NCBI GenBank assembly: GCA_015680905.1
Contig: CM027379.1
Span: 32,072,501-32,136,500 of the forward strand
DNA from: Coptis chinensis
Taxonomy: Eukaryota; Streptophyta; Magnoliopsida; Ranunculales; Ranunculaceae
Reading direction: 5' to 3'
DNA: 64,000 nucleotides
Positions 10,381 through 53,540 of this stretch are shown piece after piece. The translations under genes were made by a program, and so were the position numbers. Every line of letters starts with the position of its first letter. The stretch's first letter is position 1. The notes under the pieces are model-generated. The model was not told the origin of the DNA. It did no database searches and was given only the letters and a program-made list of their open reading frames with translations.

Positions 10381-10733
10381 TTGAATGACATTAATTAAAT
10401 GGAATTCTTGATCAGTAGTCAAGTGAGATGAAATGATAATCGGGTGACTACCATCTAGATCAAGATGGACATATTTTAATTCTAAAGGAAGAGGTTTTAA
10501 GTCAGGTGTGGGAGGAATGGGAATCAAAGATTCTTGAGGCAAATCCTCTTCAATAGAGAAAATGGAATGATGGTCATCCAAAGCGCTCGATGTCACGGTA
10601 GTAGGGTCAAATAATGGTATTGACTCTAATAACGCATGAACATCCTCAGTGTAAAAGTCAATATCAAATATGGAAACACTAAAAAAAGAAATCGGTGGAC
10701 ATCATCGCTAGGAAAAGAGCTAGTTAAAAACTC
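10381..10733 (-). pseudogene. linker between protease and RT of the Athila-type pol
   Basis: An open stretch from 10,596 to 10,378 reads as acidic, proline-rich linker (PQESLIPIPPTPDLKPLPLELKYVHL, then an HPIIISSHL block) typical of the region just before RT. The frame is broken on both sides. Confidence 0.55.
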
Positions 10734-11414
10734 TTACATGAGGGATTCAACCATGTTAATCTCACCATCAATATCAGCCTCAAGAAATTGTTTCATTAGC
10801 TTAAACACATTTACCTCTACAGAAAGATTTCTGAAGGACATGATCATGGAACCATCCCTACAGTTTATGAGGGCATTAGCAGTTGCAAGAAAGGGATGAC
10901 CTAAGATGATAGGAATAGAATCACAGGCAACTTCTATATCTAGAATGACAAAATCGACGAGATAGTAAAAGTCTTGGACTTTTATGAGGACGTTTTCCAC
11001 AATCCCTTTGGGATACTTAATGGAACGATCGGCTAACTGTAGAGTCATGGTGGTCAGTTTAAGCTCATGAAGACCTAGTTGTTTAAACAAGTAATATGGA
11101 AGTAAGTTCACACTAGCTCCTAGGTCTAGTAACGCGGTAGCAGTATATTTGTCACTCAATGTGCAAGGAATGGTCGGTCGACCAGGGTCCATGTATTTTA
11201 CAACATCATTGGATTCTGTGATAGAAGGGAACTGTTCGGTGAGGAACACTTGTTGAGGAACATTGGTTCTCCTTTTTGTCATGCACATATCTTTCAAAAA
11301 CTTTTCATGTTTCGGCAATTGTTTGATGGCATCGAGAAAAAGTAAGTTGATGGTTAAATTCTTAAAAGTTTTGCGAATTTCATCAAAATTCTTGTCATAT
11401 TTGTTCTTAGCCAA
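10734..11414 (-). pseudogene. Athila-type aspartic protease
   Basis: The protein contains LLDLGASVNLLPYYLF, where the first three residues of the classic D-S/T-G site read DLG, as in Athila proteases. LQLADRSIKYPKGIVE and VDFVILD follow, then a second conserved block (IILGHPFLATANALI). It is open for 226 residues, from about 11,414 to a stop at 10,734. Upstream sequence to about 11,545 belongs to the same region but is shifted. Retroviral-type proteases cut Gag and Pol; whether this one folded is unknown. Confidence 0.7.
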
Positions 11415-11486
11415 ACGGGTAGGAAACGGTGCCTTGGGTTTGTATTTTTCATAGGGATTGGGCTACGCCTTCCGCAAGTTTTTAGT

Positions 11487-13053
11487 TTATAATGTGTTTG
11501 GAAGTGGTGTTTCCAACGTAGGTTCATCATCAGAAACAGGGACATTGGAAGTTTCAGCGACCTTATGTTGATTAAGCGGCATATGTATTTGATTGTCTAC
11601 GGTTTTTCCAGACCGAAGAGTAGTGATTGCATTTACCTCTCCCTGGTTTGGAATAGTTGGACCAGGTGCATTATTGAGTTTAAAGGTAGTGTTTGCTGGC
11701 TTAGGATTTGGAACTGTTTGTCCAGGAAACACGCCTTTTTTACTTTTATCTTGTGCTAAGAGTTGAAGCAATTGTTAGATAGACGTTAGTATTTGAGACT
11801 GTTGGTTTAGGTAAGTCAAGAAAGTCTCACTCGTCTTATCAATCGTGGTTTGCACAGGTGGTGCAGCAGGGACTAATTCACAGTTATTGCTTAGAGGTTA
11901 AGGATGGAAGCCGTAACCTAGATTTGCTAGAACAAGGCCACGATTAGGATTGGAATTACTTGAAAACTGATTTTGACTTTGTTGGTACTGTTGATTATTT
12001 CCTTGATGGTATGGAATATAGTTGGTGGATGGTCTAACAGGTGGATTAGCGAAACCTGGAGGAGCCATCTGTTGGGTATTTGGGCGCCAAGCGAAATTTG
12101 GATGTTGTCTTCAAGGTGCATTAGGGATGTTAAATGCACGACCCTCTTCCTGTGATGGTTGGGAAAATGAAGCATATAACAAGGGACAATACGCATCAGG
12201 ATGGTTCAGGACTCAAACAAAGAACACATGGGGAAGTGTTAACATTCATTACCTATTTTGGGTTTTGATCGTTTACTTGAACTGCGAGGGCATCTACTTT
12301 TTTAGTCAGGGATTCTATCAAATTTTTTAATTCAGGATCGGGTTTGACCTCAAAGATAGACGTAACTTTTGTACTAGTGTCCTTAGATGATCTAGAAGAA
12401 TACATATTACCCCAATGAGTACCTCTCGTTGCTTGTTTTTCAAGAAAATTGTATGCCTCAGTCGCTCTTTTGTCCATGAAGCAATCTCCGTTCATTATAT
12501 CTAGTGTTTCTTTTTGATGATCAGAAAGTCCGTTAAAGAATGAACGAACAAGGACAGTGGTGTCGAGCTGATGATGGGGACATTCTAAAAGGAGATCGGT
12601 AAAATGACTCCATGCTCCTGTAAATGATTCGTGAGGATGCTGGCGAAAAAATTGAATTTTCTAAAGCATTTCCGTAGTTTTCTTCTGAGTGTAAAATTTT
12701 ATCATGAAAGACTGCACAAGTTTGTTCCATGAGTCTAGGGATTGTGGTTGTTGACTAGCGAGCCAAATTGAAGCTTTGTCCGCTAAGGTAAAAGGAAACA
12801 ACCTTAACAAGACTTGTTCATTAGAGACTGATGGATGTTGAAAAGTGGTAGCAACTTGTTGAATCCTATGAAGGTGATTGTACGGTTTCTCATGGTCTAA
12901 ACCATGATAAATAGGTAACAAACCAAAAATGTTGGGCAGGATTCGAAAATCACCCACAATATCCTCGAGTTTGATGGAGGAAAAAGGCCCTTCCTGTAAG
13001 GTCGTATTGAAGTCCGACAATGGCTTCTCGGTTGGTGTATTTTCGTCTGCCAT
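11487..13053 (-). pseudogene. Athila-type gag (decayed)
   Basis: The start is the ATG at 13,053 (MADENTPTEKPLSD); an open frame runs further upstream without a convincing start. Around residues 45-90 comes the capsid-like block LLPIYHGLDHEKPYNHLHR..., followed by LRLFPFTLADKASIWL, standard for Athila Gag. The first frame ends near 12,661. The protein continues in other frames through 12,495-12,253 and 12,196-11,927 to a proline- and asparagine-rich C-terminal region (11,771-11,487; EVNAITTLRSGKTV). At least three frame changes separate these parts. Gag forms the particle shell in live elements. Confidence 0.75.
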
Positions 13054-15186
13054 AACGAATGTAAGTAAAGGCGACAATGGAACTATATGAACGAAATTAA
13101 CAGATGAAGAACTTTGTCGAGGTGAGAACTTACGCAATTGCCTATTGTATTTTCTCCGACGATAAGTATGTTCAAAATCTTTAGAATTACCAAACCGTAA
13201 TCTCATGCAAGCATGAATTTGAACGTATACACTAGAGGAACGGATTAGGAAACGGATTTTATTATGTTCTTAAGAATTATACTTGAACAACGTATGCCTA
13301 AGCTGCTGCTAACATAGCAGTGAAGCTAGGAATACGAGTACATAAACCAACAGCCAGGTCACAGGAAAGATATGATGGAGGGTTCCGTGCAAGCATGGTC
13401 CTAATTAAGAAACCTCAAACTTTCAAGTTTCCTAGACACTGTTGGAATACGATTAAGATTCATGCGAGTTTTATTTTTTATTTTTTAATTAATTTTTTTT
13501 TTAAGTTAGTTAAAATATATGGAAGGGATAAAGGCACAACCTATTAATTTTATTATTTATTTATTTTTTGTTTTATTTTTTTTAATTTTTAATTTTTGTT
13601 GGTTTTTTTTTAAAATTTATTTTTAAGTTATTTAAAATTTATGCAAATAATGTATAAACATGCAAGTACAACCTACTCATACAGTACGAGATACGGTAGC
13701 ATGCGAAGATACTATACTCATACGTATAGAAATACTAATAGGCAAAGTTGTATCATCTATAAATACGTCGATACGCACAGGCAAATTCACATCATGGATA
13801 CGTATATATAGACTAACAGGCAAATATATATTACGTGTATGTATATCTATGCTAACAGGCAAATTAAAACTACTCATACGTATCTATATATTACTCATAC
13901 GTATATACTGATAGGCAAAGACGTAATATATACATAAAATCTAAACATGCAACGTATTATATATAGACTAATATACTACTCGTGTTTCGTATAATAAATT
14001 GATTTCGTCAATACTCAATGAGATTGCGAATATCATATAGAGAGCAGCTTCACCCCGAAGGGTTTAGAAATAACTTACCCAACTCAGATTTTAACCCTCA
14101 TTGGAATGTTCTCTTCTTTCATGACAAAATCAACTTATTAAACAAGATAGTTTTCTAAAATGATGATTTTGGAAGGGAAAACATTGGATTTTGACCTCAC
14201 AAACAGCTACCATGGAGCATAGCTGGTGGTGACAGCGTGCGCGCCGTCGAGATCTTTCTGAATTGAGGTCACACGCGTAATTCAAACAACCGTAGCCAAA
14301 GTTATGGCCACCATAGCAAAAGATCGCAATTTTTATGTGTACAACTAACTTAAAATGTATATATGCCAACATTGGAAATATAGTCCATTGATAGATATGA
14401 ATATGGTAGCAGGCAAAGATATACCACTTATATGTATAGAGATGGTATTAGGCAATATGAAACCACTCATAAGGTAATATATATGCTAAACATGCCACTT
14501 ATATCTAATACCATCTCTATACATATAAGTGGTATATCTTTGCTTGTTACCATATTCATATCTATCAATGGACTATATGTCCAATGTTGGCATATATACA
14601 TTTTAAGTTAGTTGTACACATAAAAATTGCGATCTTTTGCATATACATTATCACCGGCATATATACATACATTAAGATGCAATTCATAATCACTCAAATG
14701 TAAATATATATTAACAGGCGTATTCACATGATTCATACATATTTCTAACCTAAGACGCAAATAATAGCCCATTACCTACGACATAATAGATAAACATGTG
14801 AATCATGTCGAATTATAATAAATAAGAACCTGTAAGCATCCCACAAGTCCGCCAAAGAAAAGAAATAGTCGGTTCAACCTGGACTCAACCCAATACTGGA
14901 GGGACAAAGAACAGGTAATTCTTTTATTGAAATCCACACTTATAATGCTTTGATTCCCCGTAGTGAGCTTATATAGTTTTGTAGTTGTTGTTACATGTCC
15001 TAGTCAAAGGTACCTGTATGTGAAAAAAAAAAAACAGTACGTGATCAGTAGCGAAATGCGAAGAAAATAAAAACGAAAACAAACGAAACAAGAAAAACGA
15101 AAAAAAAAATGGAGGGGTAGGATAGGGGGCGGGGGGCTTCCCCTTGGAGCTATTCCAGCTTGTAACGTATAGTCCTTGCGTCCTTA
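13054..15186 (-). other. leader of the Athila-type element
   Basis: The 2.1 kb between primer-binding site and gag has no gene. It contains a degenerate minisatellite at about 13,660-13,990 ('aggcaaa' and 'tcatacgtat' recurring every 30-60 bp), the large inverted repeat at 14,316-14,640 and several AT-rich runs. Long leaders are usual in Athila elements. Confidence 0.6.
14316..14640. repeat. 135-bp inverted repeat with 55-bp loop
   Basis: Arm 14,316-14,450 begins 'gcaaaagatcgcaattttta' and ends 'gatggtatta'. Arm 14,506-14,640 begins 'taataccatc' and ends 'ttgcgatcttttgc'. By eye the two are reverse complements over their whole length with only a few mismatches. The loop (14,451-14,505) is AT-rich. 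Confidence 0.9.
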
Positions 15187-15205: not shown

Positions 15206-16703
15206 TGATGTTAGCTCTTTTGATAGTTTATTGTATTTGCTACACGAATCCTCAAAAGGCACCAAGATTCAATATTCCTTACTCACGTGCTTCGCGCGTA
15301 TAATTAGAGTAAGGGTGTTTGTCTAAACCTTAGGACTAGACCAATTATCACAACTGAAATTTATCTTTTAGAGGAAACTAGTGATAAGGATTTGATAGAT
15401 AGATTTATCCTTCCAAAAGATGACTTACTACACAAATTATCTAGAGATTACAAGTTGTTTTCTTAAATGAGATAGAGAGAGAAAGATAGGGAAAGGATTA
15501 ACCTACTCATGCAAGAATTAGTTACATAGCTTTTAGGAAACAAGATCATTATATCTCTAATCCATTTTGAGTTCATAGACAAACCCAAAAATAGACTTGA
15601 GTCTCGATCCCTAGCAAGATGTACTTATCTCTAAGTCCACCTTTTGCTAGCATAAGGAGTTGAATTGATTTTTCATCTCTGAAATATCATTTCAACTCCT
15701 TATCTCATCCTACAGCAGCCTGATAAATTTAAGGGTCTATCATCTCGAGCTCCAGGCTCTGAACTTGACCGGACTCTACCATTTTGGGGTAGGGTGTCAA
15801 ATGATTCCTAAGTTCCTAGGTAGTGATTCTGGACTCCGAAAACACGTAACTTGATCCTCACATGAGTATCATTAACCCTCCCCTTGCGAGGGTTTTAGCT
15901 CATGATCATACAAGTTGTGTTATGCTAATGTAAGAGTGGGAGAAGAAGAAGAACTGATTTTACCTAAAGAAAATGAGCTGATTTTTATTAGAAGAACACA
16001 AAAGACTCCATTAACACTATTCAAGATAACTTAAGCTTTTCAAGAAAATAAAACATGCATAAAACATGGAATGAATGCTCTCCTTTTTCCATTCACTACA
16101 TATGAGAGCATTCTCTCTTCCATCCCACGTGAAACCACCTCCCACATTAAATTCCATCCTATCTAAAAATCAAAGCAAATTGACCACCTTGCATTTTTTT
16201 TACACTATTAGCACCTAAATCCATTTAACTCCATTAATGTCATGCAAGGTGTCCACTTGTGCCAATTATTTGTTTGAATTGTGAGCTAGAGTTGGGACAT
16301 GATAACTGATCCAATCTTATAAGCCAGCAAAGTGGGTCCACGTGCTGCGTCCAGTGGCGAGCCCGAACATTGATTTCTGCAAATTCTGGCCTGAGGTAAA
16401 GCTAGTTGAACTGATTGTCTGGATAGCTTACTTGTCGAAAATAGAGTCCAGGTTCAAGAGATATGGGCTCCGAAAGTTGACATTTTTCTTCTCTGTCTTT
16501 GTTGAGCTTCACATGGCTGATTTGGAAGACTTCAGATATACACTGTTCCAGTGCTTTAACGCAGGGTTAATCAATATTTTCATGTCTATTGCAAAAACCT
16601 GCAAAAGTACGAAAATATAATTATTTCATGATTATTAAACACATAATTAACTAAATTGATATGTCTCTATGGGGTTTAATATTACAGTTTTTGGTGCTTA
16701 TGA
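15206..16703 (-). mobile_element. 5' LTR of the Athila-type element
   Basis: It is clearly related along its length to 57,810-59,330: 'ggatttgatagatagat', 'gtatcattaaccct' / 'agcatcattaaccct', 'gtgccaattatttg' / 'gcaccaattatttg', 'ttatttcatgattatta'. The minus-strand start reads TCATAAGCACC; the copy at 59,330 starts TGATAAGCACC, one difference. The outer (right) neighbour is the tandem array in mid-unit. The left edge is placed from the alignment and the primer-binding site and may be off by one or two bases. Confidence 0.8.
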
Positions 16704-16944
16704 TGATGCATGAGGATTCTAATGGGCTTACGATAAATAAAGAACACCAACTCCAAATTACAGTCTGCCATTAGGCTTAACATGCACACCTCAAAATGTT
16801 CAATTTTTCTGTGTCTTCATATGGCAGACAGTGTTATCCACCAAATGGTTGTAACCTCAAATAAGAAAAATGTGTGTTTATTCATTTTTCCCGTTATGTT
16901 GTTTTCTAAAGAAGTCTGAGCGTACATTATTTCTGAATCTAGTA

Positions 16945-17167
16945 ATGGCAAATATACTCCTAAAGTCATCCATTCGACCATTTTTGCTACCATTTTTTTG
17001 TTCCAAGAGATATTTCTTCAAAAACAAAATATGCAGCTTCAACTCCCAATCCCCCGAATCACCTTCGAAGCGGCAACAACATTAGAAACAACTGTGGTTA
17101 TACATCACATTGGGCAAACATAAGCAAGTGTTCATGCCCAAAATCCCTGGTAAAGACGGTGGTACGA
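16945..17167 (+). pseudogene. array unit 1: exon-1 copy
   Basis: The ATG is kept and the first ~45 residues resemble the gene's transit-peptide region (MANILLKSSIRPF, CSKRYFFKNKI). A TAG comes before the conserved LWLYNTL block. The junction after the GKVG codons is mutated. Confidence 0.85.
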
Positions 17168-17615
17168 CTTTCTTTCTAGCTTATACGAACTTGTATAAAT
17201 TGAGAAAGTCGTTGCGCGAACTTCACTTCCACCGAGAACCTGTCATGACTGGGTTTTGGTCGATTCGTGGATTTACTTTTGATTCAAGTGTGTATCGGCT
17301 ACATATGGCTTTGAAACTTTTTAGTTGAGCACTGGGCAGCGGCCCAAACCTGACAAACTTTATTGTACGCGCATGACGAATGAGGATTCCAATGGGCTTA
17401 CGATAAATAAAGAACACCCACTCTAATATCCAGTCTGCCATTGGGCTTCACCTGCACATCTCAAAATGTTCAATTTTTCTGTGTCTCCATATGGCGGGCA
17501 GCATTATCCACCAAATGGCTGTAACCTCAAGTAAGAAAAGAGATGTGTTTATTCATTTTTCCCGTTACGTAGTTTTCTAAAGAAGTCTGAGCGTACATTA
17601 TTTCTGAATCCAGTA

Positions 17616-17838
17616 ATGGCAAATATACTCCTAAAGTCCTCCATTCGACAATTTTCGCTACCAATTTTTTGTTCCAGGAGATTTTTCTTTAAAAACAAAA
17701 TATGCTGCTTCACCAGCCAATCTCTCGAATCACCTTCGGAGCAATAGCAGCAGAAGAAATAGATGAGGTTATACACACATTGGGTAGACAGAAGTAAGTG
17801 TTCATGCCTAAAAACCCTAGTAAAGTGGGCATGTACGT
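17616..17838 (+). pseudogene. array unit 2: exon-1 copy
   Basis: The ATG is kept and the frame is open for about 42 residues ([20 protein letters not shown]...), then a TAG in the poly-Gln-coding region. It ends at the common breakpoint. Confidence 0.85.
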
Positions 17839-18285
17839 CTTTCTTGCCAGCTTATATGAACTTGTATAAACTGGGAAAGTTGCTGGGTGAGCTTCGCTTC
17901 CACCAAGAACTGTCATGATTTGGTTTTGGTCGATTCGTGGATCTGCTTTTGATTCAAGTGTGTATCGGCTACATATGGCTTTGTAACTTTTTAGTTGAGC
18001 ACTAGGCAGCGGTCCAAACCTAACGGACTTTATTGTACATGTATGACGCATGAAGATTCCAATAGGCGTACGTTAAATAAAGGTCACCCACTCTAAAGTC
18101 CAGTCTGCCATTGGGATTCACATGCACGCCTCAAAATGTTCAAATTTTCTTTTTCTTCATATGGCGGACAACGTTATCCACCAAATGGTTGTAACCTCAA
18201 ATAAGAAAAGAGGTGTGTTTATTCATTTTTCCCATTATGTTGTTTTCAAAAGAAGTCCGAGCGTACATTATTTCCGAATCCAGTA

Positions 18286-18509
18286 ATGGCAAATATACTC
18301 CTAAATTCCTCCATTCAACCATTTTCACTACCAATTTTTTGTTCAAAGAGATATTTCTTCAAAAACAAAATATGATGCTTCACCTGCCAATCTCCCGAAT
18401 CACCTTCAGAGCAGCAGCAGCAGAAGAAACAGATGTGGTTATACAACACATTGGGCAGACAAAAGCAAGTGTTCATGCCCAAAAACCCTGGTAAAGTAGG
18501 CATGTACAT
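18286..18509 (+). pseudogene. array unit 3: exon-1 copy
   Basis: The ATG is kept, but a TGC-to-TGA change stops the frame after 29 residues. Beyond the stop the frame is conserved to the breakpoint ([19 protein letters not shown]). It shares 'aataggcgtacgttaaata' upstream with unit 12. Confidence 0.85.
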
Positions 18510-18932
18510 CTTTCTTGCCAGCTTATACAAACTTGTATAAACTGGGAAAGTTGCCGGACGAGCTTCCCTTCCATCGAGAACCTGTCATGACTTGGTTTTT
18601 GTCGATTCTTGGATTTGCTTTTGATTCAAGGGTGTATCGGGTACATATGGCTTTGTAACTATTTAGTTGAGCACTAGGCAGCGGCCCTAACCTGACGGAC
18701 TTTATTGTACACGTATAACGCAAGAGGATTCCAATAGGCTTACGATAAATAAAGAACACCCACTCTAAAGTCCAGTCTGCCATTGGGCTTCACCTGCATG
18801 CCTCAAAATATTCAATTTTTATGTGTCCCAAATGGCTGTAACCTCAAGTAAGAAAAGAGGTGTGTTTATTCATTTTTCTCGTTACCTTCTTTTTTAAATA
18901 AGTCTGAGCGTACATTATTTCTGAATCCAGTA

Positions 18933-19155
18933 ATGACAAATATACTCCTAAAATCCACCATTCGAAAATTTTCGCTACCAATTTTTTGTTCTAAGAGATT
19001 TTTATCAAAAACAAAATATGCTACTTCACCTGCCAATCTCCCGAATTACCTTCGGAGCAGCAGCAACAGAAGAAACAGATGTGGTTATACAACACATTGG
19101 GCGGACATAAGCAAGAGTTCATGCCCAAAAACCCTGGTAAAGTCGGCATGTACGT
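18933..19155 (+). pseudogene. array unit 4: exon-1 copy
   Basis: The ATG is kept (ATGACA...). A one-base deletion after about codon 23 shifts the frame, so a 123-residue open frame results that is no longer the synthetase after its first quarter. Confidence 0.8.
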
Positions 19156-19603
19156 CTTTCTTGCCAGTTTATATGAACTTGTACAAACTGGGAAAGTTGC
19201 CTGGCGAGCTTCGCTTCCACCGAGAACCTGTCATGACTTGGTTTTGCTCGATTTGTGGATTTGCTTTTAATTACAGTGTGTATCGGCTACATATGGTTTT
19301 GTAACTTTTTAGTTGAGCACTGGGCAGCAGCCCAAACTTGACAGATTTTATTGTACACGCATGATGCATGAGGATTGCAATGGGCTTACGAAAAATAAGT
19401 AACACCCACTCTAAAGTCCAGTCTGCCATTGGGCTGCACTTGCACGCCTTAAAATGTTCAATTTTTATTTGTTTTCATGTGGCGGGAAGCATTATCCTCC
19501 AAATGGTTATAACGTCAAATAAGAAAAGAGATGTGTTTATTCATTTTTCCCGTTATGAAGTTTTCTAAATAAGTCTGAGCGTACATTATTTCCGAATCCA
19601 ATA

Positions 19604-19827
19604 ATTGCAAATATACTCCTAAAGTCCTTCATTCGACCATTTTCGCTACCAATTTTTTTTTCCGAGAGATTTTTCTTCAAAAGCAAAATAAGTTGTTTCA
19701 CCTGCCAATCTCCCGTATCACCTTCGGAGTAGCAGTAGTAGAAGAAACATATGTGGTTATACAACACATTGGGCAGACATAAGCAAGTGTTAATGTCCAA
19801 AATCCCTAGTAAAGTCGGCATGTACGT
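19604..19827 (+). pseudogene. array unit 5: exon-1 copy
   Basis: The start codon has become ATT. Variants such as 'gtagcagtagtagaagaaacat' and 'gttaatg' before the breakpoint are shared with unit 8. Confidence 0.85.
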
Positions 19828-20275
19828 CTTTTTTGCCAGCTTATACGAACTTGTATAAACTAGGAAAGTTGTCGGGCGAGCTTCGCTTCCACCGAGAACC
19901 TGTCATGACTTGGTTTTGGTTGATTTGTGGATTTGCTTTTGATTATAGTGTGTATCGGCTACATATGGCTTTGTAACCTTTTAGTTGAGCACTGGGCAGC
20001 GGCCCAAACTTGACATATTTTATTGTACACGCATGACGCATGAGGATTGCAAAGGGGTTACAAAAAATAAGTAACACCCATTTGATAGTCCAGTCTGCCA
20101 TTAGGCTGCACCTGTATGCCTCAAAATGTTCAATTTTTATTTGTCTTCATGTGGCGGGCAGCGTTATCTACCGAATGGTTGTAACGTCAAACAAGAAAAG
20201 AGGTATGTTTATTTATTTTTCTCGTTACGTTGTTTTCTAAAGTAGTCTGAGCATACATTATTTTCGAATCCAGTA

Positions 20276-20496
20276 ATTGCAACTATACTCCTAAAGTCCT
20301 TCATTCGACCTTTTTTGCTACCAATTTTTTATTCCAAGAGATTTTTCTTCAAAAACAAAATATCCTGCTACACCTCCCAATCTCCCGTATCACCTTTGGA
20401 GAAGCAACATAAGAAACAACTATGGTTATACAACACATTGGGCAGACAGAAGCAAGAGTTCACGCACAAAAACCCTGGTAAAGTCGGCATGTGCAT
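20276..20496 (+). pseudogene. array unit 6: exon-1 copy
   Basis: The start codon is ATT. Downstream variants ('gaaattgtataaact', 'tttttaggttagcactggg') are shared with unit 9. Confidence 0.85.
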
Positions 20497-20944
20497 TTTT
20501 CTGGCCAGCTTACATGAAATTGTATAAACTAAGAAAGTTGTCGGGCGAGCTTCGCTTCCACTGAGAACTTGTCATGACTGGGTTTTGGTCGATACGTGGA
20601 TTTGCTTTTGATTCAAGTGTGTATCGGCTACATATGGATTTGTAACTTTTTAGGTTAGCACTGGGTAACAGCCCAAACCTGACAGATTTTATTGTACACG
20701 TATGACGCATGAGGATTGCAATGGGTTGACAAAAAATAAGTAACAACCAATCTAAAGTCCAGTCTGCCATTAGGCTGCACCTGCACGCCTCAAAATGTTC
20801 AATTTTTATTTGTCTTCATGTGGCGGGCAACATTATCCACCAAATGGTTGTAACGTCAAATAAGAAAAGAGTTGTGTTTATTTATTTTTCCCGTTACGTT
20901 GTTTTCTAAAGAAGTCTGAGCGTACATTATTTCCGAATCCAATA

Positions 20945-21160
20945 ATTACAAATATACTCCTAAAGTCTTTCATTCGACCATTTTCGCTACCAATTTTTTG
21001 TTCCACGAGATTTTTCTTCAAAAACAAAATATGCTTCTTCACTTGCCAATCTCCCGAATCACCTTCGGAGTAGCAGCAGCAGAAATAGCTGTGGTTATAC
21101 AACACATTAGGCAGATAGTTCATGCCAAAAAACCCTGGTAATTAAAGTCGGCATGTGCGT
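20945..21160 (+). pseudogene. array unit 7: exon-1 copy
   Basis: The start codon is ATT. It has a short deletion and 'ggtaattaaagtcgg' before the breakpoint, shared with unit 11. 'gagaaatttgccgggcgagc' after it is shared with unit 10. Confidence 0.85.
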
Positions 21161-21608
21161 CTTTCTTGCCAGCTTATACGAACTTATATAAACTGAGAAA
21201 TTTGCCGGGCGAGCATCACTTCCACCGAGAACTTGTCATGACTTGGTTTTGGTCGATTTTTGGATTTGCTCTTGATTCAAGTGTGTATCGGCTACATATG
21301 GCTTTGTAACTTTTTAGTTGAGCACTGGGCTGCGGCTCAAACCTGACGGACTTTATTGTACACGTATGACGCATGAGGATTCCAATGGGCTTACGATAAA
21401 TAAAGAACACCCACTCTAAATTCTAGTCTGCCATTGGGATTTACATGCACGCCTCAAAATATTCAATTTTTCTGTGTCTTCATATGGTGGACAGCGTTAT
21501 CCACCAAATGGTTGTAACCCCAACTAAGAAAAGAGGTGTGTTTATTCATTTTTCCCGTTACATTCTTTTCTAAAGAAGTCTGAGCGTACATTATTTCTGA
21601 ATCAAATA

Positions 21609-21832
21609 ATTGCAAATATACTCCTAAAGTACTTCATTCGACCATTTTCGCTACCAATTTTTTGTTCCAAGATATTTTTCTTCAAAAACAAAATAAGCTG
21701 CTTCACCTGCCAATCTCCCATATCACCTTCGGAGTAGCAGTAGGAGAAGAAACATATGTGGTTATACAACACATTGGGCAGACAGAAGCAAGTGTTAATG
21801 CCCAAAATCCCTGGTAAAGTCAGCATGTACGT
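21609..21832 (+). pseudogene. array unit 8: exon-1 copy
   Basis: The start codon is ATT. The exon part matches unit 5 and the upstream part matches unit 11 ('ggtggacagcg', 'aaccccaactaag'). The LTR-like insertion at 21,973 lies in the non-gene part of this unit. Confidence 0.85.
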
Positions 21833-22555
21833 CTTTCTTGACAGCTTATAGAACTTGTATAAATTGGGAAAGTTGTCGGGCGAGCTTCACTTCCACCGAG
21901 AACCTGTCATGACTTGGTTTTGGTTGATTTGAGGATTTACTTTTGATTCAAGTTTGTATCGGCTACATATAGTATAACACCCCTATTTTTATTCTCCTTT
22001 TTAATGAAATATATATAAAGTTAAATAATAATAATAATATATAAAAATAAAAAGGATAAAGATTAGAAAGAGATAGGGTAAAGAGGATGAACCCCATTCC
22101 CTATTTTAAGGGCTTTTGAAAAAAAAAAAAAAAGGGTGTTTACATAGAGAGTTTTAAACGGTGGAGAGGGAGAGTTTTACAAAAAGAAGAAAAGGGAGGT
22201 TTCTTGCTGGGAATTTGCTGGCAACAGGAGCGCATCACGAGTGAGTAGATTTTTCTTTTTATTTCTCTTTGATATATATTCGCTTCTATAATCTATTGTC
22301 ATAATTATTAATGTCTTGTCGTTTGACAAAAAATCAGTTAGAATGGATGATGTAAGTGTTGTTTGTTATGGTGTCAAGGTTAACAATTAAAATATAATGG
22401 GCAATTTCCACGTTGGTTTCCTATTGGATAATTTCGTATGTATTAATACACTTATCTTGTGCGTGCTGGATTTCTCCTCTTAAATTTTGTTAAGGTTTGG
22501 TTACTTATATTAACTAGGAATATTTGAGAAGAAGATGAACTGAAAAAGGATGATC

Positions 22556-23105
22556 TGAAAAACTACACTGCGCAGTCAGAAGTTCCTTACTAGATGGAGG
22601 TCAAATTAGTATTGGATTGACTTCATATTTAATCTGTAGTTTTATAAGACATTGTAGTTTGACATATTAAAACTTTAGACAGATCCAACGGTTGGATGTC
22701 TATCAAGGCACGCATAAGTGTAACAGGTCGTAGTGTTTCTATACCAAAAAAACTGCAGTGCGCAGTCTTTTTTTTTCTGCTTAGATGGTAACCTTTCCGT
22801 ACTCAGATTTGTATGAAATTTAATCCATAGTTTCTTGACACACTGTAGTCTTCCATATTAGATTTTTTGATTTATCCAACGGCTTGATATCTGTCGAGGC
22901 TTCCATTAGTGGGACTGGTCGTAGTAGAAACTACACCAGAAAACTGATGGGCTCAGTCCTTTGTTTCTGCTTAGATGGAGGTTAACCTATTATCGGATTG
23001 ACCTCAAATTTAAATCCGTAGATTCTTGATATCCAGTTAAATGACATATACAAATTTTAGGCAGATCCAATGGTGGGTTGTCTGTCAAGGCACGGATTAA
23101 CAAGG
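22556..23105. repeat. three diverged ~185-bp repeats within the LTR-like insertion
   Basis: Each has a 'gcagtc'-type start, 'gcttagatgg', 'tccaac/tggt' and 'tgtc(a/g)aggc', then a 'ggtcgtagt' motif (lost in the third). Spacing is about 185 bp. Confidence 0.7.
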
Positions 23106-23356
23106 TTGTTAGAATTAGCTAAAGTTTAAAATGGATATAGTTGGGTGGTTATATGATGATATTAGATGGTCAGTGGTTATTATACTTTCGATATATTCTT
23201 ACTATTGTGGAAATATTGGTATGGAATGAAAAGATATCTATATGTTTTCTTTTATCGTGTTTATTAAAATATTTGGAGAATTGGTTAAGAACTATGAAGG
23301 CTTGATTCAAATCCTGAAAGATTTGGATACGTAGGCAGCTTTGAACAAAAGTGCAC

Positions 23357-23359
<3 letters not shown>

Positions 23360-23422
<63 letters not shown>
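23360..23422. repeat. (TA)n microsatellite
   Basis: About 31 uninterrupted TA dinucleotides. Confidence 0.98.
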
Positions 23423-23425
<3 letters not shown>

Positions 23426-23844
23426 TTTTGTGTGATAACTATGTGATTGTGTTAGAAATTACTGTTGTTTTGAGACTACATAAATATATATATAGAAGTT
23501 GTATATGAATATAGACTTTATTATATGTGGATCTGTTTTGGACATTAGTATGTGTGGACTTGAATTTGGGCTAATGAACTATTTGTTTACGATATTGTGT
23601 ATATGAGTGTGGTTATGTAAATTGTATTTGTTTGATTATAAGTTTGTTTACATTCAATGATATTTAAGTGCTTGATTTGCCTTGACGCGCGAAAATGACT
23701 CTCTGCATGTGTGGTCTGCTTTAACATGAATAATGCTAGTATAATTATAAGTGATAATTAATGTGTCGCCCACATCTTTATAACTCTCCACGTTTCAGGA
23801 TTTGGTGATGAGATATTATGACTTGTGATGTCATGTGATAGATG

Positions 23845-24131
23845 GGTATTCATTGAATATGCCATGAATGACCCGGGTATTCATTGAATGTGCCATGAAT
23901 GACCCAATAGTTTGGACTGCCCTAGAGAGTAACTAAGGTATTCGCCTTGTGGGTTTGTCGTATTCTTTGAATGTACGGGAATGTAGGTTTGGGTATTCCT
24001 TGAATGTGGCGGGAATGACTCAGGGCATTCATTGAATGTGCCATGAATGGCCCGTTAGTATTATGATGGGTATTCCTTGAATGTGGCGGGAATGACCCAA
24101 GGTATTCATTGAATGTGCCATGAATGACCTG
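23845..24131. repeat. minisatellite within the LTR-like insertion
   Basis: 'gggtattcattgaatgtgcc' and 'atgaatgaccc' recur with variation ('ccttgaatgtggcgggaatg'); the units average about 37 bp. Confidence 0.8.
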
Positions 24132-25957
24132 ATATTTTGTTATGCCCAAAGGAGGCTTTGTGATTATGTGTATGGAAAGCTCAGAGATGGTCGTGACTCA
24201 CAAGTTACGAGTTTACAAGATGAAAGTATGTTTCCTGGAGGCGATATCCCGCTTGGGACATATGTCTTGTAGTGGTACTCGGTGTGAGTGAGGCACAAGG
24301 ATATGTGTGATTTGGCAAGTGTGTGTAGTGCAAATCGTGGAGTAGGAACTATAGGTTGGGCTATGTCTTTGAATAAATAAGTCAACAAGATAATTAATAA
24401 ACAAAGTAAAAATATTGATTTTAAGTGTGATGGAGTTATATATTATGATATATATGATTTCTTATGAGAAATATATACGTGGTTTGTATGAGTTGATACT
24501 CACAAGGGATGAATGTACTCCTTGGGTGTGATATTTCCCCGTTCTCATAAGTAGATGATTGGTTTTTAAGTAAAAGTATATGAATTGTGTGATGTTATGG
24601 ATGTGAAGTGTGACTGTGAATAATATTAGTAAATGATTGTGATTTCTATTTGACTGCGAAATGACTATAACTTGATATGTTATTACGAAAATATTAATGA
24701 CTTGTGATAGTCTGAGATCTATGGTTATGCACGCAGAAACTTTATGACGTAATGATGTCATATGAATGACTACCCTTGATATATGTATTATGATAAGTGG
24801 TATTCTCTGAATATGCGGGACGAACCAGGTTATATCAATTAGACTTAAATATCTTAAATGAGGTTTGGTTATGAATGGAAATTTGACTGGCTGAGATAAA
24901 TCATTTTATTGTGATGTCTAACTCTGTTTTGCAGGAGGGTAGGATCTATTTATCTTTTCTGCAGGGACGTAAATATCCTACCCTAAGACGACGTGTTGGC
25001 TTAAAGGTAATGTATACCAAAATCATATTTAATTAGGTTATCATATGTGCATTTAATAAATGGAATGTAAGTGGTATTTATGTTGTGAGTTATTTTGAAA
25101 AGTGGGAATGATGAGTACTGTTATATGAGATTCTTGGAAATTTGTATATTGGGGGTGAAATCTTACTTGGGAAGAAACTACACGCCGTTTTGGAAAACGG
25201 AACTATATTGTCTTCCAAGTTGAAATGGTTGGTAATGTTATATTTGAAAGATTATTATATATATTTTGTTGTTAGTCTACTCATACCAGCAAATTCAATT
25301 TCCTGACCCATGTTTGCTTTGTTATGTAACATGGGTGTGTTCTTGGGAATATAGATGGTGGAGTACAGTGGATAAAGACACCTGATTTGGAGTTGCTCTT
25401 GGAGTCTTCTGGTTTAAGATTTTCTGAAGGGTACGGTTTTGTTTTGAGACAGATGTAATAAAGATGGTTAGTTTTTGTAGTTAATAATGTGATTTAAGGA
25501 TTTGTTCCTTTTAGTTTTCTTTGATTCAGTTTTGTATATATCGTGTTTGATAACAGGGTTTTGGGTTTTGTTTCACTCCGGGTTTCCAGATAATTGAATA
25601 TAATTGTTTTAAATATTGTCTGTGAATTTGGGGTGTGACAAATGGCTTTGTAATTTTTTAGTTGAGCACTAGGTAGCGGCCCAAACTTGACAGATTTTAT
25701 TGTACACGCATGACGCATGAGGATTGCAAAGGGCTTACGAAAAATATGTAACACCAATTCGATAGTCCAGTCTACCATTGGGCTGCACTGCACCTGCACG
25801 CCTCAAAATGTTTAATTTTTATTTGTCTTCATGTGGCGGGCAACATTATCCATCAAATGGTTGTAATGTTAAATAAGAAAAGAGGTGTGTTTATTCATTT
25901 TTCCCGTTACGTTGTTTTCTAAAGTAGTCTGAGCGTACATTATTTCCGAATCCAGTA

Positions 25958-26178
25958 ATTGCAAATATACTCCTAAAGTCCTTCATTCGACCATTTTCGC
26001 TACCAATTTTTTGTTCTAAGAGATTTTTCTTTAAAAACAAAATATGTTGCTTCATCTCCCAATCTCCCGAATAACCTTCGGAGCAGCAACAGAAGAAATA
26101 GCTATGGTTATACAACACATTGGGCAGATAGAAGCAAGAGTTCACACACAATAACCCTGGTAAAGTTGGCATGTGCGT
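25958..26178 (+). pseudogene. array unit 9: exon-1 copy
   Basis: The start codon is ATT. It pairs with unit 6 by shared variants after the breakpoint. Confidence 0.85.
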
Positions 26179-26626
26179 CTTTCTTGCCAACTTATACGAA
26201 ATTGTATAAACTGAGAAAGTTGTCGGGCGAGCTTCGCTTCCACCGAGAACTTGTCATAACTGGGTTTTGGTCTATACATGGATTTACTTTTGATTCAAGT
26301 GTGTATTGGCTACATATGAATTTGTAAATTTTTAGGTTAGCACTGGGCAGCGGCCCAAACCTGACAGATTTTATGGTACATGCATGACGCGTGAGGATTG
26401 CAATGGGCTGACGAAAAATAACTAACACCCACTCTAAAGTCCAGTCTGCCATTGGGCTACACCTGCACGCCTCAAAATGTTCAATTTTTATTTGTCTTCA
26501 TGTGGCGGGCATCATTATCCACCAAATGGTTGTAACGTCAAATAAGAAAAGTGGTGTGTTTATTCATTTTTCCCGTTACGTTGTTTTCTAAAGTAGTCTG
26601 AGCGTACATTATTTCTGAATCCAATA

Positions 26627-26847
26627 ATTGCAAATATACTCCTAATGTCTTTCATTTGACCATTTTCGCTTAATTTTTTTTGTTCCACCAAATTTTTCTT
26701 CAAAAACAAAATACGCTGCTTCACCTGCCAATCTCCCAAATCACCTTCAGAGTAGCAGCAGCAGAAACAGCTGTCGTTATACAACACATTAGGCAAACAG
26801 AAGCAAGAGTTCATGCCCAAAATCCCTGGTAAAGTCGGCATGTGCGT
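26627..26847 (+). pseudogene. array unit 10: exon-1 copy
   Basis: The start codon is ATT. It pairs with unit 7 ('gaaatttgccgggcgag', 'ttgctcttgattcaag'). Confidence 0.85.
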
Positions 26848-27290
26848 CTTTCTTGCCAGCTTATACAAACTTGTATAAACTGAGAAATTTGCCGGGCGAG
26901 CTTCACTTCCACCGAAAACTTGTCATGACTTGGTTTTTGTTGATTCATGGATTTGCTCTTGATTCAAGTGTGTATCGGCTACATATGGCTTTGTACTTTT
27001 TAATTGAGCATTGGGTAGCGGCCCAAACCTGACGGACTTTATTGTACACGTATGACGCATGAGGATTCCAATGGGCTTATGATAAATAAAGAACACCCAC
27101 TTTAAAGTCCAGTCTGCCATTGGGCTTCACAGCACGCCTCAAAATGTACAATTTTTCTGTGTCTTCAAATGGTGGACAGCGTTATCCACCAAATGGTTGT
27201 AACCCCAACTAAGAAAAGAGGTGTGTTTATTAATTTTTCCCACGTTGTTTTCTAAAGAAGTCTGAGCGTACATTATTTCTGAATCCAATA

Positions 27291-27508
27291 ATTGCAAATA
27301 TACTCCTAAAGTCCTTCATTCCACCATTTTCGCTACCAATTTTTTGTTCCAAGAGATTTTTCCTCCAAAACAAAATATGCTGCTTCACTTGCCAATCTCC
27401 CGAATCACCTTGAGTAGCGAAGAAAGAAAAGAAACATGTGGTTATACAACACATTAGGCAGATAGTTCATGCCCAAAAACCCCCGGTAATTAAAGTCGGC
27501 ATGTGCGT
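27291..27508 (+). pseudogene. array unit 11: exon-1 copy
   Basis: The start codon is ATT. The serine/glutamine region is rearranged ('gagtagcgaagaaagaaaag'). The upstream half matches unit 8 and the 3' end matches unit 7. Confidence 0.85.
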
Positions 27509-27958
27509 CTTTCTTTCCAGCTTATACGAACTTGTATAAACTGGGAATTTGTCGGGCGATCGAGCTTCGCTTCCATCGAGAACCTGTCATGACTTGGGTT
27601 TGGTCGATTTGTGGATTTGCTTTTGATTCAAGTGTGTATCGGCTACATATGGCTTTGTAACTTTTTAGTTGAGCACTGGGCAACGGCCCAAACCTGACGA
27701 CTTTATTGTACATGTATGACACATGAGGTTTCCAATAGGCGTACGTTAAATAAAGATCACCCACTCTAAAGTCCAGTCTACCATTGGGATTCACATGCAC
27801 ACCCCAAAATGTTCAATTTTTCTTTGTCTTCATATGGCGGACAACGTTATCCACCAAATGGTTGTAACCTCAAATAAGAAAAGAGGTGTGTTTATTAATT
27901 TTTCCCATTATGTTGTTTTCTAAAGAAGTCCGAGCGCACATTATTTCCGAATCCATAA

Positions 27959-28182
27959 ATGGCAAATATACTCCTAAAGTCTTCCATTCGACTATTTTCG
28001 CTACCAATTTCTTGTTCCAAGTGAGTTTTCTTCAAAAACAAAATTTGCTGCTTCACCTCCAAATCCCCCGAATCACCTACGGAGCAGCAACGACAGAAGA
28101 AACAGCTATGGTTATACAATGCATTGGGCAGACAGAAGCAAGTGTTCACACCCAAAAACCCTGGTAAAGTCGGCATGTGCGT
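27959..28182 (+). pseudogene. array unit 12: exon-1 copy, next to the intact gene
   Basis: The ATG is kept. An AAG-AGA to AAG-TGA change stops it after about 21 residues, but the remaining codons stay in frame with the gene through LWLYNALGRQKQVF and GKVGM. Its upstream half matches unit 3. Confidence 0.85.
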
Positions 28183-28370
28183 CTTTCTTGCCAGCTTATA
28201 CGAACTTGTACAAACTGAGAAAGTTGTCGGGCGAGCTTCTCTTCCACCGAGAAATTGTCATGACTGGGTTTTGGTCAATTCGTGGATTTGATTTTGATTC
28301 AAGTGTGTATCAGCTTGCCTACATATGGGTTTGTAACTTTTTAGCTGAGCACTGGGCAGCGGCCCAAACA

Positions 28371-28575
28371 TGACTGAGTTTATTGTAGAATTCCAATGGG
28401 CTTACGGATAAATCGTTATTAGGATTCCAATGGGCTTACGGATAAAATTGGACTTTAATGTAGGATTTCAATTTTTATGTTTCTTTCGTGTGGCCGGGCA
28501 GCGTTATCCACCAAGTAAGAAAAGAGTTGTGTTTTTTCATTTTTCCAGTTGCTTACATCATTTCCGAATCCAGTA
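28371..28575 (+). promoter_or_regulatory. upstream region of the intact cysteinyl-tRNA synthetase gene
   Basis: This is the only unit upstream region that leads into a full gene. It is shorter than in the array. The block 'aattccaatgggcttacgg' occurs twice (28,389 and 28,423), while array units have it once. Part of 'cattattcc'-type sequence common to the units ('ctaaagaagtctgagcgt') is missing here. 'cattatcgaatccagtaATG' type context before the start is shared. I see no clear TATA box and no mapped transcription start. Confidence 0.5.
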
Positions 28576-31500
28576 ATGGCGAAAATACTCCTAAATTCCT
28601 CAATTCGACCATTTTCGCTACCAATATTTTGTTCCAAGAGATTTTTCTTCAAAACCAAAATATGCTGCTTCACCTGCCAATCTCCCGAATCACCTTCGGA
28701 GCAGCAGCAGAAGAAACAGCTGTGGTTATACAACACATTGGGCAGACAGAAGCAAATGTTCACGCCCAAAAACCCTGGTAAAGTCGGCATGTACGTTTGC
28801 GGCGTCACAGCTTATGACCTCAGTCACATTGGTCATGCTCGTGTCTATGTTTCTTTTGATGTCCTCTTCAGGTATGTATACTCCAATTCTTTTAGTTGTT
28901 TATTGCAAAGTGCTTTCACTTCCCACTAACTAAGTGGACCTGTTTTTTGGACCTTGTTTGAAAACTAGGCAGATACTTGAAACATTTGGAATATGAAGTT
29001 TGTTATGTACGCAATGTCACCGATGTCGATGACAAGGTCAGTGTTATACTTCTTGCTGCGATTCATTTTTTTTTAAATGTTAGTTGCCATACTTTTTGTG
29101 TTGGACATGTCATTAGACTTACTTTTGCACTTTTCCATACGTGTAGATAATTGCTAGAGCAAATGAGTTGGGAGAGGACCCTTTGAGTTTAAGCAGACGC
29201 TACTTTGATGAATTCCGTTGTGACATGTCATATCTTCACTGCATTTCTCCTTCGGTTGAACCTCGTGTATCTGATCATATGCCCCAGATCATTGATATGA
29301 TCAAACAGGTGCTCACCTTGATCTTTATGTACTTGTTTGTAAAACTGCCAAGCATGCTTCTTCAGTTTCGTAGTGTTACAGATGTAACTGTAGTTAGAAG
29401 ACCTTTTGTTATTCTAGTTTTTCTGATATAGAAAGTTTTCGCTACTGTTCTCCATGTTGCTGTTATCCACCGGCTAAGTTATTTGACCTGCAGGTGATTT
29501 TTTTTTATAGACTACTAGACACTTCTCATGAATTTCATTAAAGTAATAGCAGGAACCCTGTTACAGAACCTGGCCTTGCTCTATATATCTTGTCAATGTC
29601 AACTAAGTATATCTTTGGCGTTAGAAACTGCATTTTCGTTTCTTTTCATGTAAACAATAATCCTTCTCATTTTCCTTTGCAAACTTAAACAGAAACATGA
29701 CTAGTCAATTTTACATAGAACTTTAACTTTGTTGGCTTGCTTTCTTGACAGATTCTTGATAATGGTTGTGCCTATAGAGTTGATGGCGATGTTTATTTTT
29801 CTGTAGACAAATTTCCTGAATATGGACGACTATCTGGACGGAAGTTGGAAGATAATAGAGCAGGTGAAAGGGTGACTGTTGATTCGAGGAAGCGAAATCC
29901 TGCTGACTTTGCATTATGGAAAGTGAGTTGATCAGCAAAAACTTCTGTATGTATGAGGTTTTGCATTGAAAGTTTGATGAAGAGATCATTCCCAGGCTTA
30001 ACCTGCCAGCCTATCTGAAACTTCTTGCCTTGTCAAAACTCAGTACTGGTTTGCACATTGAAATATTTGGTCCATTATTTCACCATGAAATTTCAGTTGC
30101 TCAGAACTTTCAAGTAGGTTTCATTTGTGAGGATGATCTCCTTTTTTGGACTGAAACATTGTTGCAGATCTTAACTTGGAAGTTAGAACGTTTTAAAATT
30201 AGTCAAAGGTTCTCTTATGCTATGATGGTAAAGTATTTCGGCCTACAGATGCAATATTTACATAAATGCCAGACACATTGCACAAGCCAGATAGATAACA
30301 ATATATCAGGACACAAAGCGGTTCCGTTAGTGATACTGTATAGATTTTAATTTCTCAAATTCCTAAGTTTATCTAACAAACTCCATTTACCATCTGCAGT
30401 CTACGAAGGAAGGAGAACCTTTTTGGGAAAGTCCTTGGGGACCTGGAAGACCAGGATGGCATATTGAGTGCAGTGCAATGAGTGCAGCGTACTTGGGTTA
30501 CTCTTTTGATATACATGGTGGAGGGGTGGACCTTGTGTTTCCTCATCATGAAAATGAAATTGCTCAGAGCTGTGTTGCTTGTAACAAGAGTAACATAAGC
30601 TACTGGATGCACAACGGATTTGTCAATATTGATAATGAGAAGATGTCGAAGTCACTGGGTAATTTCTTCACAATCCGGCAGGTAATTGTAATCAAGTACT
30701 CTGCTTAGGATATCAATCATTCTGTGCAACTTTTGTTTGCTTTCATGTTTGAGCATTTTACAATGAATATAAGATATCTTGATGGATGGTTCCCTGCAAT
30801 TCTGCAGGTTATAGACCTTTACCATCCACTTGCTGTGAGGCTATTTCTGATGGGAACACACTATCGATCTCCTATTAACTACTCAAATGAGCAGCTTGAA
30901 AGTGCATCTGACCGTGTTTTTTACATATATCAGGTACCATTATTTCTTTCAATTCCGTGAGGTGCATTGTTAAGACATACAACTCATACATCTTTTCTCC
31001 CAAGCCGAGGTAGTTGGAAGTTGGAACACACTGAAAGAAGTAGACCTGACATTCTATTAACCCTAAAATTATCCGCATCTAGCTGGTTAAATCCAATGGA
31101 AGTTTCATCCCTGACACTGTAAAAGATAACTGTAGAGCTTACCAACCACGCAATGAACTGATCTGCACATCTTAAGTTTCTTCCAACTTACAAGTATAGG
31201 CAAGTGACTCTGGTCAATATATTTTCTATTGTAGACTTCAGTCTCTGAGAGTGTGATTTAAATGCACAAGGTTGAGTATGCCTTCATTCAATAAAAAAGT
31301 GTGTTTGTTCTTTTCTGTGAGGTCGTTCACTAAAACGTGTAGATCTGTTATTTTTTGTGAATGCGAATTTTGATATCATTTATATTGATGTTTAGTCAGG
31401 ATACTCCATGTACCTTGTTATAATTTGGTCTTTGTAAAACTTGTTTTGTGGACATCCCTCTTGCTAGTGGGATTTCCATTCGACAGGTGTCTCCAACTTC

Positions 31501-32413
31501 CCATCCATGGTGGGGTTGGGTTGGGGCGGAATGGATGATGGCTTCCTCTGACAAGCATAGTATTTTACCCCTCATTTTTTTTTGTCTATAAAAAGCCTGT
31601 TCTTCTGATAAAATAAATGCTGATAGGATTCTTGGATACCTATCTTCATGAAGTTGTTCTCGTGAAATTTGTGCAGACATTACATGATTGTGAAGAGGTG
31701 TTGAGCCAGCATCACAAAGCGCATTGCAAGGACAACATTCCTCCTGCTACTCGAACTTGCATTGATAAATTTCATAATGATTTTGAGATATCTATGCTGG
31801 ATGATCTCCATACTCCTGTCGTTTTGGCTGCTATGTCTGATCCACTGAAGACCATCAATGATCTTTTGCATACTCGTCAGGTACCCTTCTCTAACCTCTA
31901 CCAATATTTTGCTCAAAACTTTTGGGTCGAGGGGTGTTTGATATTTGTCATCATTCAAATTGAATGATTCTTGCAGGGGAAGAAAGAGGAACTACGTATT
32001 CAATCACTTTCAGCTCTTGAAGAAGAAATTAAGAGTGTTCTCTCGGTTCTTGGACTGATGCCCACAAGTTATGCTGAGGTAGGTGATACTGATTACTGAA
32101 AGCTCCTCCCAAAAGATGCCCAGATGTTTGTATAGTTTCTCTTTCTACCCCACAAATTTCTATTTCATTCATTCAGGTTCTGCAACAATTAAGAGAAAAG
32201 GCATTGAAAAGAGCAGGACTGCAAGAAGATGAGGTATCACAGAAAATCGAACAAAGGACATCTGCAAGAAAAAATAAGGAATATGAAAGATCAGATGCTA
32301 TCAGAAAGGAGTTAGCTGAAGTTGGCATTGCGCTAATGGATGGTCCTAAAGGAACATTTTGGAGACCAACTGTTCCTCTTGCCCTACAAGAGCATGAGGT
32401 TAACTCTTCCTGA
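28576..32413 (+). CDS. cysteinyl-tRNA synthetase, organelle type (9 exons)
   Basis: It charges tRNA-Cys with cysteine. Exons: 28,576-28,871; 28,973-29,036; 29,147-29,308; 29,752-29,922; 30,400-30,681; 30,808-30,933; 31,677-31,880; 31,977-32,078; 32,177-32,413. All introns are GT-AG, phases agree, and the joined frame is 547 residues with no stop. The first ~45 residues are basic and serine-rich with no acids, like a plastid or mitochondrial transit peptide. LWLYNTL is the start of the enzyme. [10 protein letters not shown] has the zinc-ligand Cys, [10 protein letters not shown] the HIGH motif, WHIECSAM and [10 protein letters not shown] the other zinc ligands, and [10 protein letters not shown] the KMSKS loop. 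The C-terminal tRNA-binding helices end in GTFWRP. The length is near that of the organellar enzyme of Arabidopsis (about 560). The ATG is the one that the array copies also share. It is a housekeeping gene with a twelve-copy exon-1 array directly upstream. Confidence 0.95.
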
Positions 32414-33072: not shown

Positions 33073-33462
33073 TAAGTTACTGTAGAAGGGTACCGGTACT
33101 TCAATTTGATGAAGAACGATTACTGCATAGTTCCGTCTGCTGACCACTTTGCCTGTATTGTTGATCTTCTTGGTCGGGCTGGCCAGTTAGAGGCAGCACA
33201 CGAGATCATTAAATGTATGCCTGTAGAACCTAATGCTGGTGCATGGGGTGCGCTGCTTGGTGCTTGTAAGCTGCACAGAAATACTGAACTTGGAAATATT
33301 GTAGCAGGCCGGCTATTAGAAGTTGAGCCGAACAATGCTGGTAACTATGTGTTGCTTTCAAACATTTATGCTTCTGCAGATCAGTGGTCTGATGTTGCAG
33401 AGGTGAGGGACAGGATGCGAGAAAGAGGACTTCAGAAGAAACCTGGTTGCAGTTGGATCTGA
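33073..33462 (+). pseudogene. PPR protein C-terminal fragment (E-motif end)
   Basis: The frame opens directly after a stop (about 33,073) and reads VEGYRYFNLMKNDY, then ADHFACIVDLLGRAGQLEAA, AWGALLGACKLHRN, and YVLLSNIYASADQWSDVAEV, ending LQKKPGCSWI and TGA. This is the last PPR repeat and the E region of a PLS-class pentatricopeptide protein, which would act in organellar RNA editing. Hundreds of upstream residues are absent, and a poly(A) run lies about 15-35 bp before the break. The last residues stop where relatives usually continue (GCSWIE...). I read it as a truncated fragment, not a gene. Confidence 0.8.
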
Positions 33463-53010: not shown

Positions 53011-53540
53011 GAGTGGTGTCTTAATTTTGAAAGATGGAGTATGAGAAAAGAGTATACTAGCAGGCAACAAGACAACGGCATATCTTCGATAAAGATGATT
53101 CCCAAGTTGCGATTTAGTTCCACATCTAAACTGACGTAACGATTGTGAAAGTTGCGATTTAGTTCCACACCTGACTGGATTCAAGCGGTTAGACTATAAG
53201 AGAGAGAGGTACAACTCCAGATGAGTAGAATTTAAGTTGGAAGATTTGAAGGTTTAATCAAATCGAGCACAAACAATAATCCAGCCCATAATTCTCGTGG
53301 ACAGGGTCCAAAAGGATGCATTCTGTGATTAATTGTAAATGTCCAAAAGGATGCATTCTGTTTACCTTTTATTTCTTCATTTTATTTTTCTATCTTACAT
53401 ACATCATGTGATTATGTGTTCGAGATTTGGAAAGTAGAAACCAAAGTACCAAATCACTCCTTAATGAACACTTGAATAGAATAGAACGTACGTCCAACCA
53501 AAAACTACTTCAATGGCTCAAGGCAAATGCATTGAAGCAA

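Follow-up and report, generated by a model that had tools for sequence, protein, structure and literature searches.

Satellite DNA can arise by tandem duplication at one locus, and at the UGT1 and protocadherin loci the tandem units serve as first exons, with reading frames and splice donors. The two latter loci place promoter and first-exon units in tandem ahead of common downstream exons, as outlined in PMC3325998 and PMC1885805. Repeats at or upstream of a gene may also bear on its expression state: PMC3431836 describes direct repeats in the start region of Arabidopsis FWA, where methylation accompanies silencing of the gene, and PMC3798267 describes seven non-coding repeats of 853 bp about 100 kb upstream of maize b1 that function in paramutation. 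Here we report on a 64,000-nucleotide stretch of the Coptis chinensis genome (the window: assembly GCA_015680905.1, contig CM027379.1, positions 32,072,501 to 32,136,500, forward strand), in which the upstream DNA and first ~74 codons of an organellar cysteinyl-tRNA synthetase gene recur in a twelve-unit head-to-tail array directly before the intact gene.

The Coptis locus shares part of its organization with each of these systems. FWA also carries tandem repeats in the start region of a gene (PMC3431836), but the Coptis array has 12 units, which copy upstream DNA and coding start of the gene itself. The b1 repeats are likewise units of several hundred bp arrayed upstream of one gene (PMC3798267), whereas the Coptis array adjoins its gene and includes the first ~74 codons. 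The tandem arrangement of upstream region and first-exon start ahead of a common body recalls UGT1 and the protocadherins, but the Coptis units have no donor and their frames are broken. Satellites born at a single locus have in common with this array their head-to-tail units, decay, insertion of a long terminal repeat (LTR)-type element and, as it appears, higher-order pairing of units; in contrast to them, there are only 12 copies here, in one place in the window, and the source gene is intact and adjacent. No comparable gene-start array was found by title or start of abstract in the open-access literature, among the matches listed, which does not prove absence. The array itself is real, and it is unusual.

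An earlier note on this DNA, made from the sequence, had proposed twelve partial copies upstream of the intact gene, and self-BLAST of the window together with alignment to the gene start confirmed them. Self-BLAST placed the array in plus orientation at 16703-21970 and 25638-28796, and the alignment (12 units plus the gene start, with unit 8 joined across an insert) resolved 12 units of 641-677 bp spanning 16703-28388. Each aligned unit consists of a copy of the gene's upstream stretch (U, columns 1-252), a copy of its first ~74 codons (E, columns 253-479) and a third part, X (205 bp in the consensus). Pairwise identity among units is 84.4-92.7%, and individual units carry indels of their own. 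The unit consensus had no match at E 1 or better in the rest of the 64-kb window. Tandem Repeats Finder did not report the ~670-bp array, the longest period it gave being 500. The units are as follows.

16703..17372, plus strand: unit 1; begins mid-unit beside a dispersed repeat; ATG kept, stop after 46 codons
17373..18042, plus strand: unit 2; ATG kept, stop after 43 codons
18043..18719, plus strand: unit 3; ATG kept, stop after 29 codons
18720..19360, plus strand: unit 4; ATG kept, frameshift giving an open reading frame (ORF) of 123 aa, no homologue found
19361..20032, plus strand: unit 5; ATG changed to ATT
20033..20701, plus strand: unit 6; ATG changed to ATT, otherwise open for 83 codons
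20702..21365, plus strand: unit 7; ATG changed to ATT
21366..21972, plus strand: unit 8, first part; ATG changed to ATT; runs to the insert
25641..25709, plus strand: unit 8, last part; resumes after the insert
25710..26383, plus strand: unit 9; ATG changed to ATT
26384..27051, plus strand: unit 10; ATG changed to ATT
27052..27715, plus strand: unit 11; ATG changed to ATT
27716..28388, plus strand: unit 12; ATG kept, stop after 21 codons

The gene that follows was modelled in nine exons, picked by eye with GT-AG borders, whose spliced 547-aa product has no internal stop. It belongs to the cysteinyl-tRNA synthetases, matching the class I domain PF01406 over residues 62-358 (E 2.2e-128).

28389..28575, plus strand: upstream DNA of the gene; rearranged distally, where a 23-bp local duplication was noted by eye; proximally homologous to the units except for two deletions
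28576..32413, plus strand: organellar cysteinyl-tRNA synthetase gene; intact, 9 exons, 547 aa
28576..28871, plus strand: exon 1; homologous to the units as far as ~28796

Exon 1 is 85.6-92.7% identical to the units over E (28576-28794). Against the array, exon 1 scored at best 314 bits by BLAST, compared with a maximum of 29.2 bits in 50 mononucleotide shuffles. The homology halts at ~28796, 75 nt short of the splice donor at 28871 and, as the earlier note had also read it, ahead of the HIGH motif. Its description of the gene as in effect a thirteenth unit was borne out in part: the proximal upstream DNA is homologous to that of the units (mean p 0.134, two deletions), whereas the distal part has been rearranged (mean p 0.49).

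The start codon is kept in five of the 12 units (1-4 and 12) and reads ATT in units 5-11, and no unit (0/12) combines an ATG with an unbroken frame through E. Read from the start-codon position, 10 units stop after 10-46 codons; the two exceptions are unit 4, frameshifted to 123 codons, and unit 6, whose frame lacks a start but stays open for 83 codons. Variable sites among the units fall evenly on the three codon positions (33/35/33, of 73 sites each; chi-square p 0.96), as do singletons (31/30/26; chi-square p 0.79), and gene and unit consensus disagree at only 1, 3 and 7 sites of the first, second and third codon position. Mean divergence among units is 0.121 in U, 0.134 in E and 0.120 in X; by shorter stretches it ranges over 0.102-0.165, with 0.102 in the 53 columns before the ATG and 0.103 in a stretch of X. 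The absence of codon-position bias and the similar divergence of U, E and X together indicate that the units evolve as non-coding DNA and that their upstream part is not specially kept. With head-to-tail units of similar length and no coding constraint, the array is satellite-like.

The changes among the units are unevenly distributed by sequence context. A transition of the C or G was seen at 37 of 46 CG sites, 31 of 46 CHG sites and 61 of 173 CHH sites, and the excess over CHH was significant for both CG and CHG (permutation p 0.0002 each; 0.001 for CHG when counted by events; 5000 permutations, with 35 alignment columns round the glutamine run dropped). Transversions were not raised in the same contexts (7/46 CG, 13/46 CHG, 54/173 CHH). 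When all columns were retained, the order of pure-transition events per site was unchanged (CG 1.17, CHG 0.75, CHH 0.31), and CHG transversion or mixed events were then also higher (0.98 vs 0.54). In plants, CG and CHG methylation is typical of silenced repeats, and for this reason we read the transition pattern as a probable trace of methylation and the array as probably silenced.

In the tree of whole units, pairs are formed at an offset of three: units 6 and 9 (support 100/99), units 7 and 10 (98/95) and, more weakly, units 8 and 11 (83/80). Identities at this offset are 90.6% for units 5 and 8, then 90.3, 92.7 and 90.1%. Taken together, the pairs and identities suggest that about three neighboring units may have been duplicated as one block. 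No firm support in the trees joined any unit to the gene.

Two features that the earlier note had not mentioned belong to the history of the array, namely a 3668-bp insert in unit 8 and the position of the left edge of the array against the end of a dispersed repeat.

21973..25640, unstranded: solo-LTR-like insert in unit 8, 3668 bp; ends TATAACACCCC...GGGGTGTGACA read by eye, putative LTR
16097..16701, unstranded: end of a dispersed repeat; 66% identity to 58673-59327; stops one base short of where the array begins

The insert is flanked by TATAG (21968-21972) and, on the right, by AATGG, where an uninterrupted unit has TATGG (target site by eye). These flanks and the ends of the insert would be compatible with a solo LTR whose 5-bp target duplication has aged. 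The insert has short internal repeats only, with no long repeat pair at its ends, and unit 11 contains no insert like that of unit 8. Within the insert lie a perfect TA repeat of 31.5 copies (23360-23422) and tandem repeats with periods of 31-34. On the left of the array, homology to the dispersed repeat ends at 16701 and homology to the array begins at 16703; unit 1 accordingly begins part-way through a unit. There could be more units on the far side of that repeat, outside the window.

We consider it probable that the locus is a satellite-like tandem array derived from the 5' end of the gene, reshuffled by unequal exchange, decayed and marked by methylation-like mutation. A satellite born from a gene start was among the options that the earlier note had listed, and it is the one that the data favor, given the absence of intact frames, the even variation over codon positions and the similar divergence of U, E and X. 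On this account, a stretch X-U-E, comprising upstream DNA and the first ~74 codons, would have been tandemly duplicated before the gene; the array would then have grown and been reshuffled through unequal exchange, with neighboring units duplicated as a block, and an LTR-type element would have inserted into it. The array has no coding constraint and its mutations follow the pattern of methylated DNA, and the intact gene at its end retains its reading frame together with a separately changed promoter. Tandem duplication and unequal exchange would be the engine and methylation the cause of the transitions, and no function would be needed.

Several observations weigh against such an origin or complicate it. 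The tree built from E alone, which is otherwise poorly resolved, pairs unit 8 with unit 5 (99/96) and not with unit 11, and the whole-unit tree splits the seven ATT units, grouping units 8 and 11 with ATG-bearing units (94/99). Because of these conflicts, the history is not that of a simple duplication series. Since units 8 and 11 group with ATG-bearing units in spite of their ATT, the loss of the start in seven adjacent units may have spread by exchange or conversion, or it may have arisen repeatedly; by either route, growth or homogenization appears to have continued among start-less copies. X had no source match in the gene or elsewhere in the window: comparison with the gene gave short chance matches only, and a permissive search of the window outside the array gave short matches only. 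The CG, CHG and CHH contexts were taken from the unit consensus, without an unmethylated control. The observed/expected ratio of CpG is 0.63-0.93 in the units (0.80 in the consensus), whereas the window has 0.63 and the gene body 0.42; CpG is thus not strongly depleted in the units, and overall CpG content does not support long methylation. Finally, of the 167 21-mers that lie wholly upstream of the gene's ATG, none has an exact match in any of the 12 units, which a neutral model does not specially predict.

This last result can be set beside the other counts of shared words. Among the 193-228 21-mers that a unit has in U, 45-121 recur in the other 11 units, and unit 6 is also low in proximal 21-mer sharing (10/110). 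In E, the gene shares 53 of 199 21-mers and the units 18-68 of 194-202, and 33 of the 196 24-mers in the gene's E have an exact match in a unit. A single 20-mer upstream of the gene's ATG is common to gene and units. The missing 21-mers could reflect escape from homology-based silencing, or simply the rearrangement and the two deletions.

If the array instead acted as a cis-regulatory tandem repeat of the FWA or b1 type, small interfering RNAs (siRNAs) and methylation, or an enhancer activity, would set the state of the gene. The position of the array directly upstream, the presence of the upstream region and start in its units, the CG and CHG transition excess and the exact 24-mers in E would all suit such a role, and there are precedents: PMC3431836 reports that the FWA promoter repeats yield small RNAs and are methylated when silent, and PMC3798267 that the b1 repeats yield siRNAs, are needed for paramutation and raise reporter expression. 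However, the units contain one 20-mer but no 21-mer from wholly upstream of the gene's ATG, and U is about as variable as X; we regard this explanation as unlikely. A narrower proposal, which we hold to be unlikely and somewhat more doubtful, is that small RNAs keep the array methylated and silent, and that this housekeeping gene may stay active through promoter changes that have removed every match of siRNA length to the array, whereas its coding start, which has little freedom to vary, still matches. If true, the gene would be a natural example of evolutionary escape from silencing that its own copies impose. The suggestion of the earlier note that the copies might act as decoy promoters was not supported, because U varies among units about as X and E do. 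For small RNAs made from the copies, another of its options, the one pointer is the methylation-like transition pattern.

Use of the units as products fares worse. Tandem alternative promoters and first exons, splicing to the common gene body, would match the order of a repeated upstream region and first-exon start before a constant body, and in 8 of 12 units the four sites that score best with a home-made matrix include a cryptic donor, CTG|GTAAAG. The real donor at 28871, however, is in none of the 12 units, which end 75 nt before it; a transcript that joined the cryptic donor to exon 2 would lack the HIGH motif, and no frame is intact from an ATG. We rejected this UGT1-like arrangement on the missing donor and the lack of open frames, and leave it a slim chance. 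That the units encode small targeting-peptide proteins, another option of the earlier note, is scarcely credible: the unit consensus resembles the gene's own N-terminus, peptides of 21-46 aa could come from four of the ATG units and a frameshifted one of 123 aa from unit 4, but the ATG is missing in 7 of 12 units, codon positions are unconstrained, and neither the unit-4 ORF nor the consensus peptide found a homologue. In the protein searches, limited to candidates of 0.55-1.75 times the query length, the unit-4 ORF drew seven candidates, none at E 0.01 or better, and the consensus peptide drew none; nor was the array seen in relatives through these searches. A capturing transposon of the Helitron or Pack-MULE type could have assembled and spread the unit in place of plain tandem duplication and would suit X, which found no source in the gene or window and is fused to a gene start, but no copy of the unit lies elsewhere in the 64-kb window, the array sits directly at its source gene, and inspection by eye gave no convincing case of Helitron or MULE ends; we see little prospect for this route. 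Assemblies are error-prone at repeats, and the earlier note had named an assembly error as something that could undo its claim. An artefact is nevertheless very unlikely indeed, since the units are only 84-93% identical, with no pair more than 92.7% alike, and they carry their own indels and an insert in one of them; one C. chinensis assembly is described in PMC8166882 as long-read based, although it may not be the source of this window. A satellite-like array grown from the gene's own start remains the preferred explanation.

The array has consequences for the annotation of the gene. A Coptis chinensis protein (P0002, tag IFM89_031524) is 100% identical to our product over 90% of the query, and PMC12541783 lists IFM89 gene tags for the genome from GCA_015680905.1. 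Residues 1-31 of this protein map to unit 2 (17702-17794), residues 32-58 were read by eye in unit 3, residues 59-71 map to unit 6 (20163-20201) and residues 72-97 to the insert (25354-25431); the protein joins exon 1 from residue 98. Because the N-terminus predicted here from the gene aligns with N-termini from Ranunculus and one further protein, the start of the public model is very probably wrong, with 97 residues derived from the array and insert standing where the true protein probably has its first 57. The false N-terminus is an annotation error caused by the array, and the locus thus exposes a concrete case of array and insert sequence inside a public protein.

Other features of the window lie outside the array. 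Close 3' of the synthetase gene, at 33109-33459, lies part of a PPR protein that includes an E motif (PF20431, E 8.9e-25). To the left of the array, a near-palindrome at 14316-14640 matched its own reverse complement in self-BLAST (88% over 328 aligned positions). Remains of LTR retrotransposons, with reverse transcriptase, integrase, aspartyl protease and gag domains, occur at 698-1324 (plus), 7603-13206 (minus) and 57165-57836 (plus); the gag match at 12664-13206 is slightly below the Pfam cut-off. At 53427-54589 there is a TPR-repeat ORF (PF00515, E 3.6e-13), followed by an open frame that matched nothing in Pfam, and a scan of the window with Rfam at gathering thresholds gave 0 matches.

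If the origin proposed here is right, the locus would be a satellite-like repeat caught at its birthplace, still joined to its intact source gene. An essential gene would then have decayed and probably silenced copies of its promoter immediately beside the promoter itself, and the locus allows a test of how near-copies of a gene's start are tolerated while that gene is expressed.

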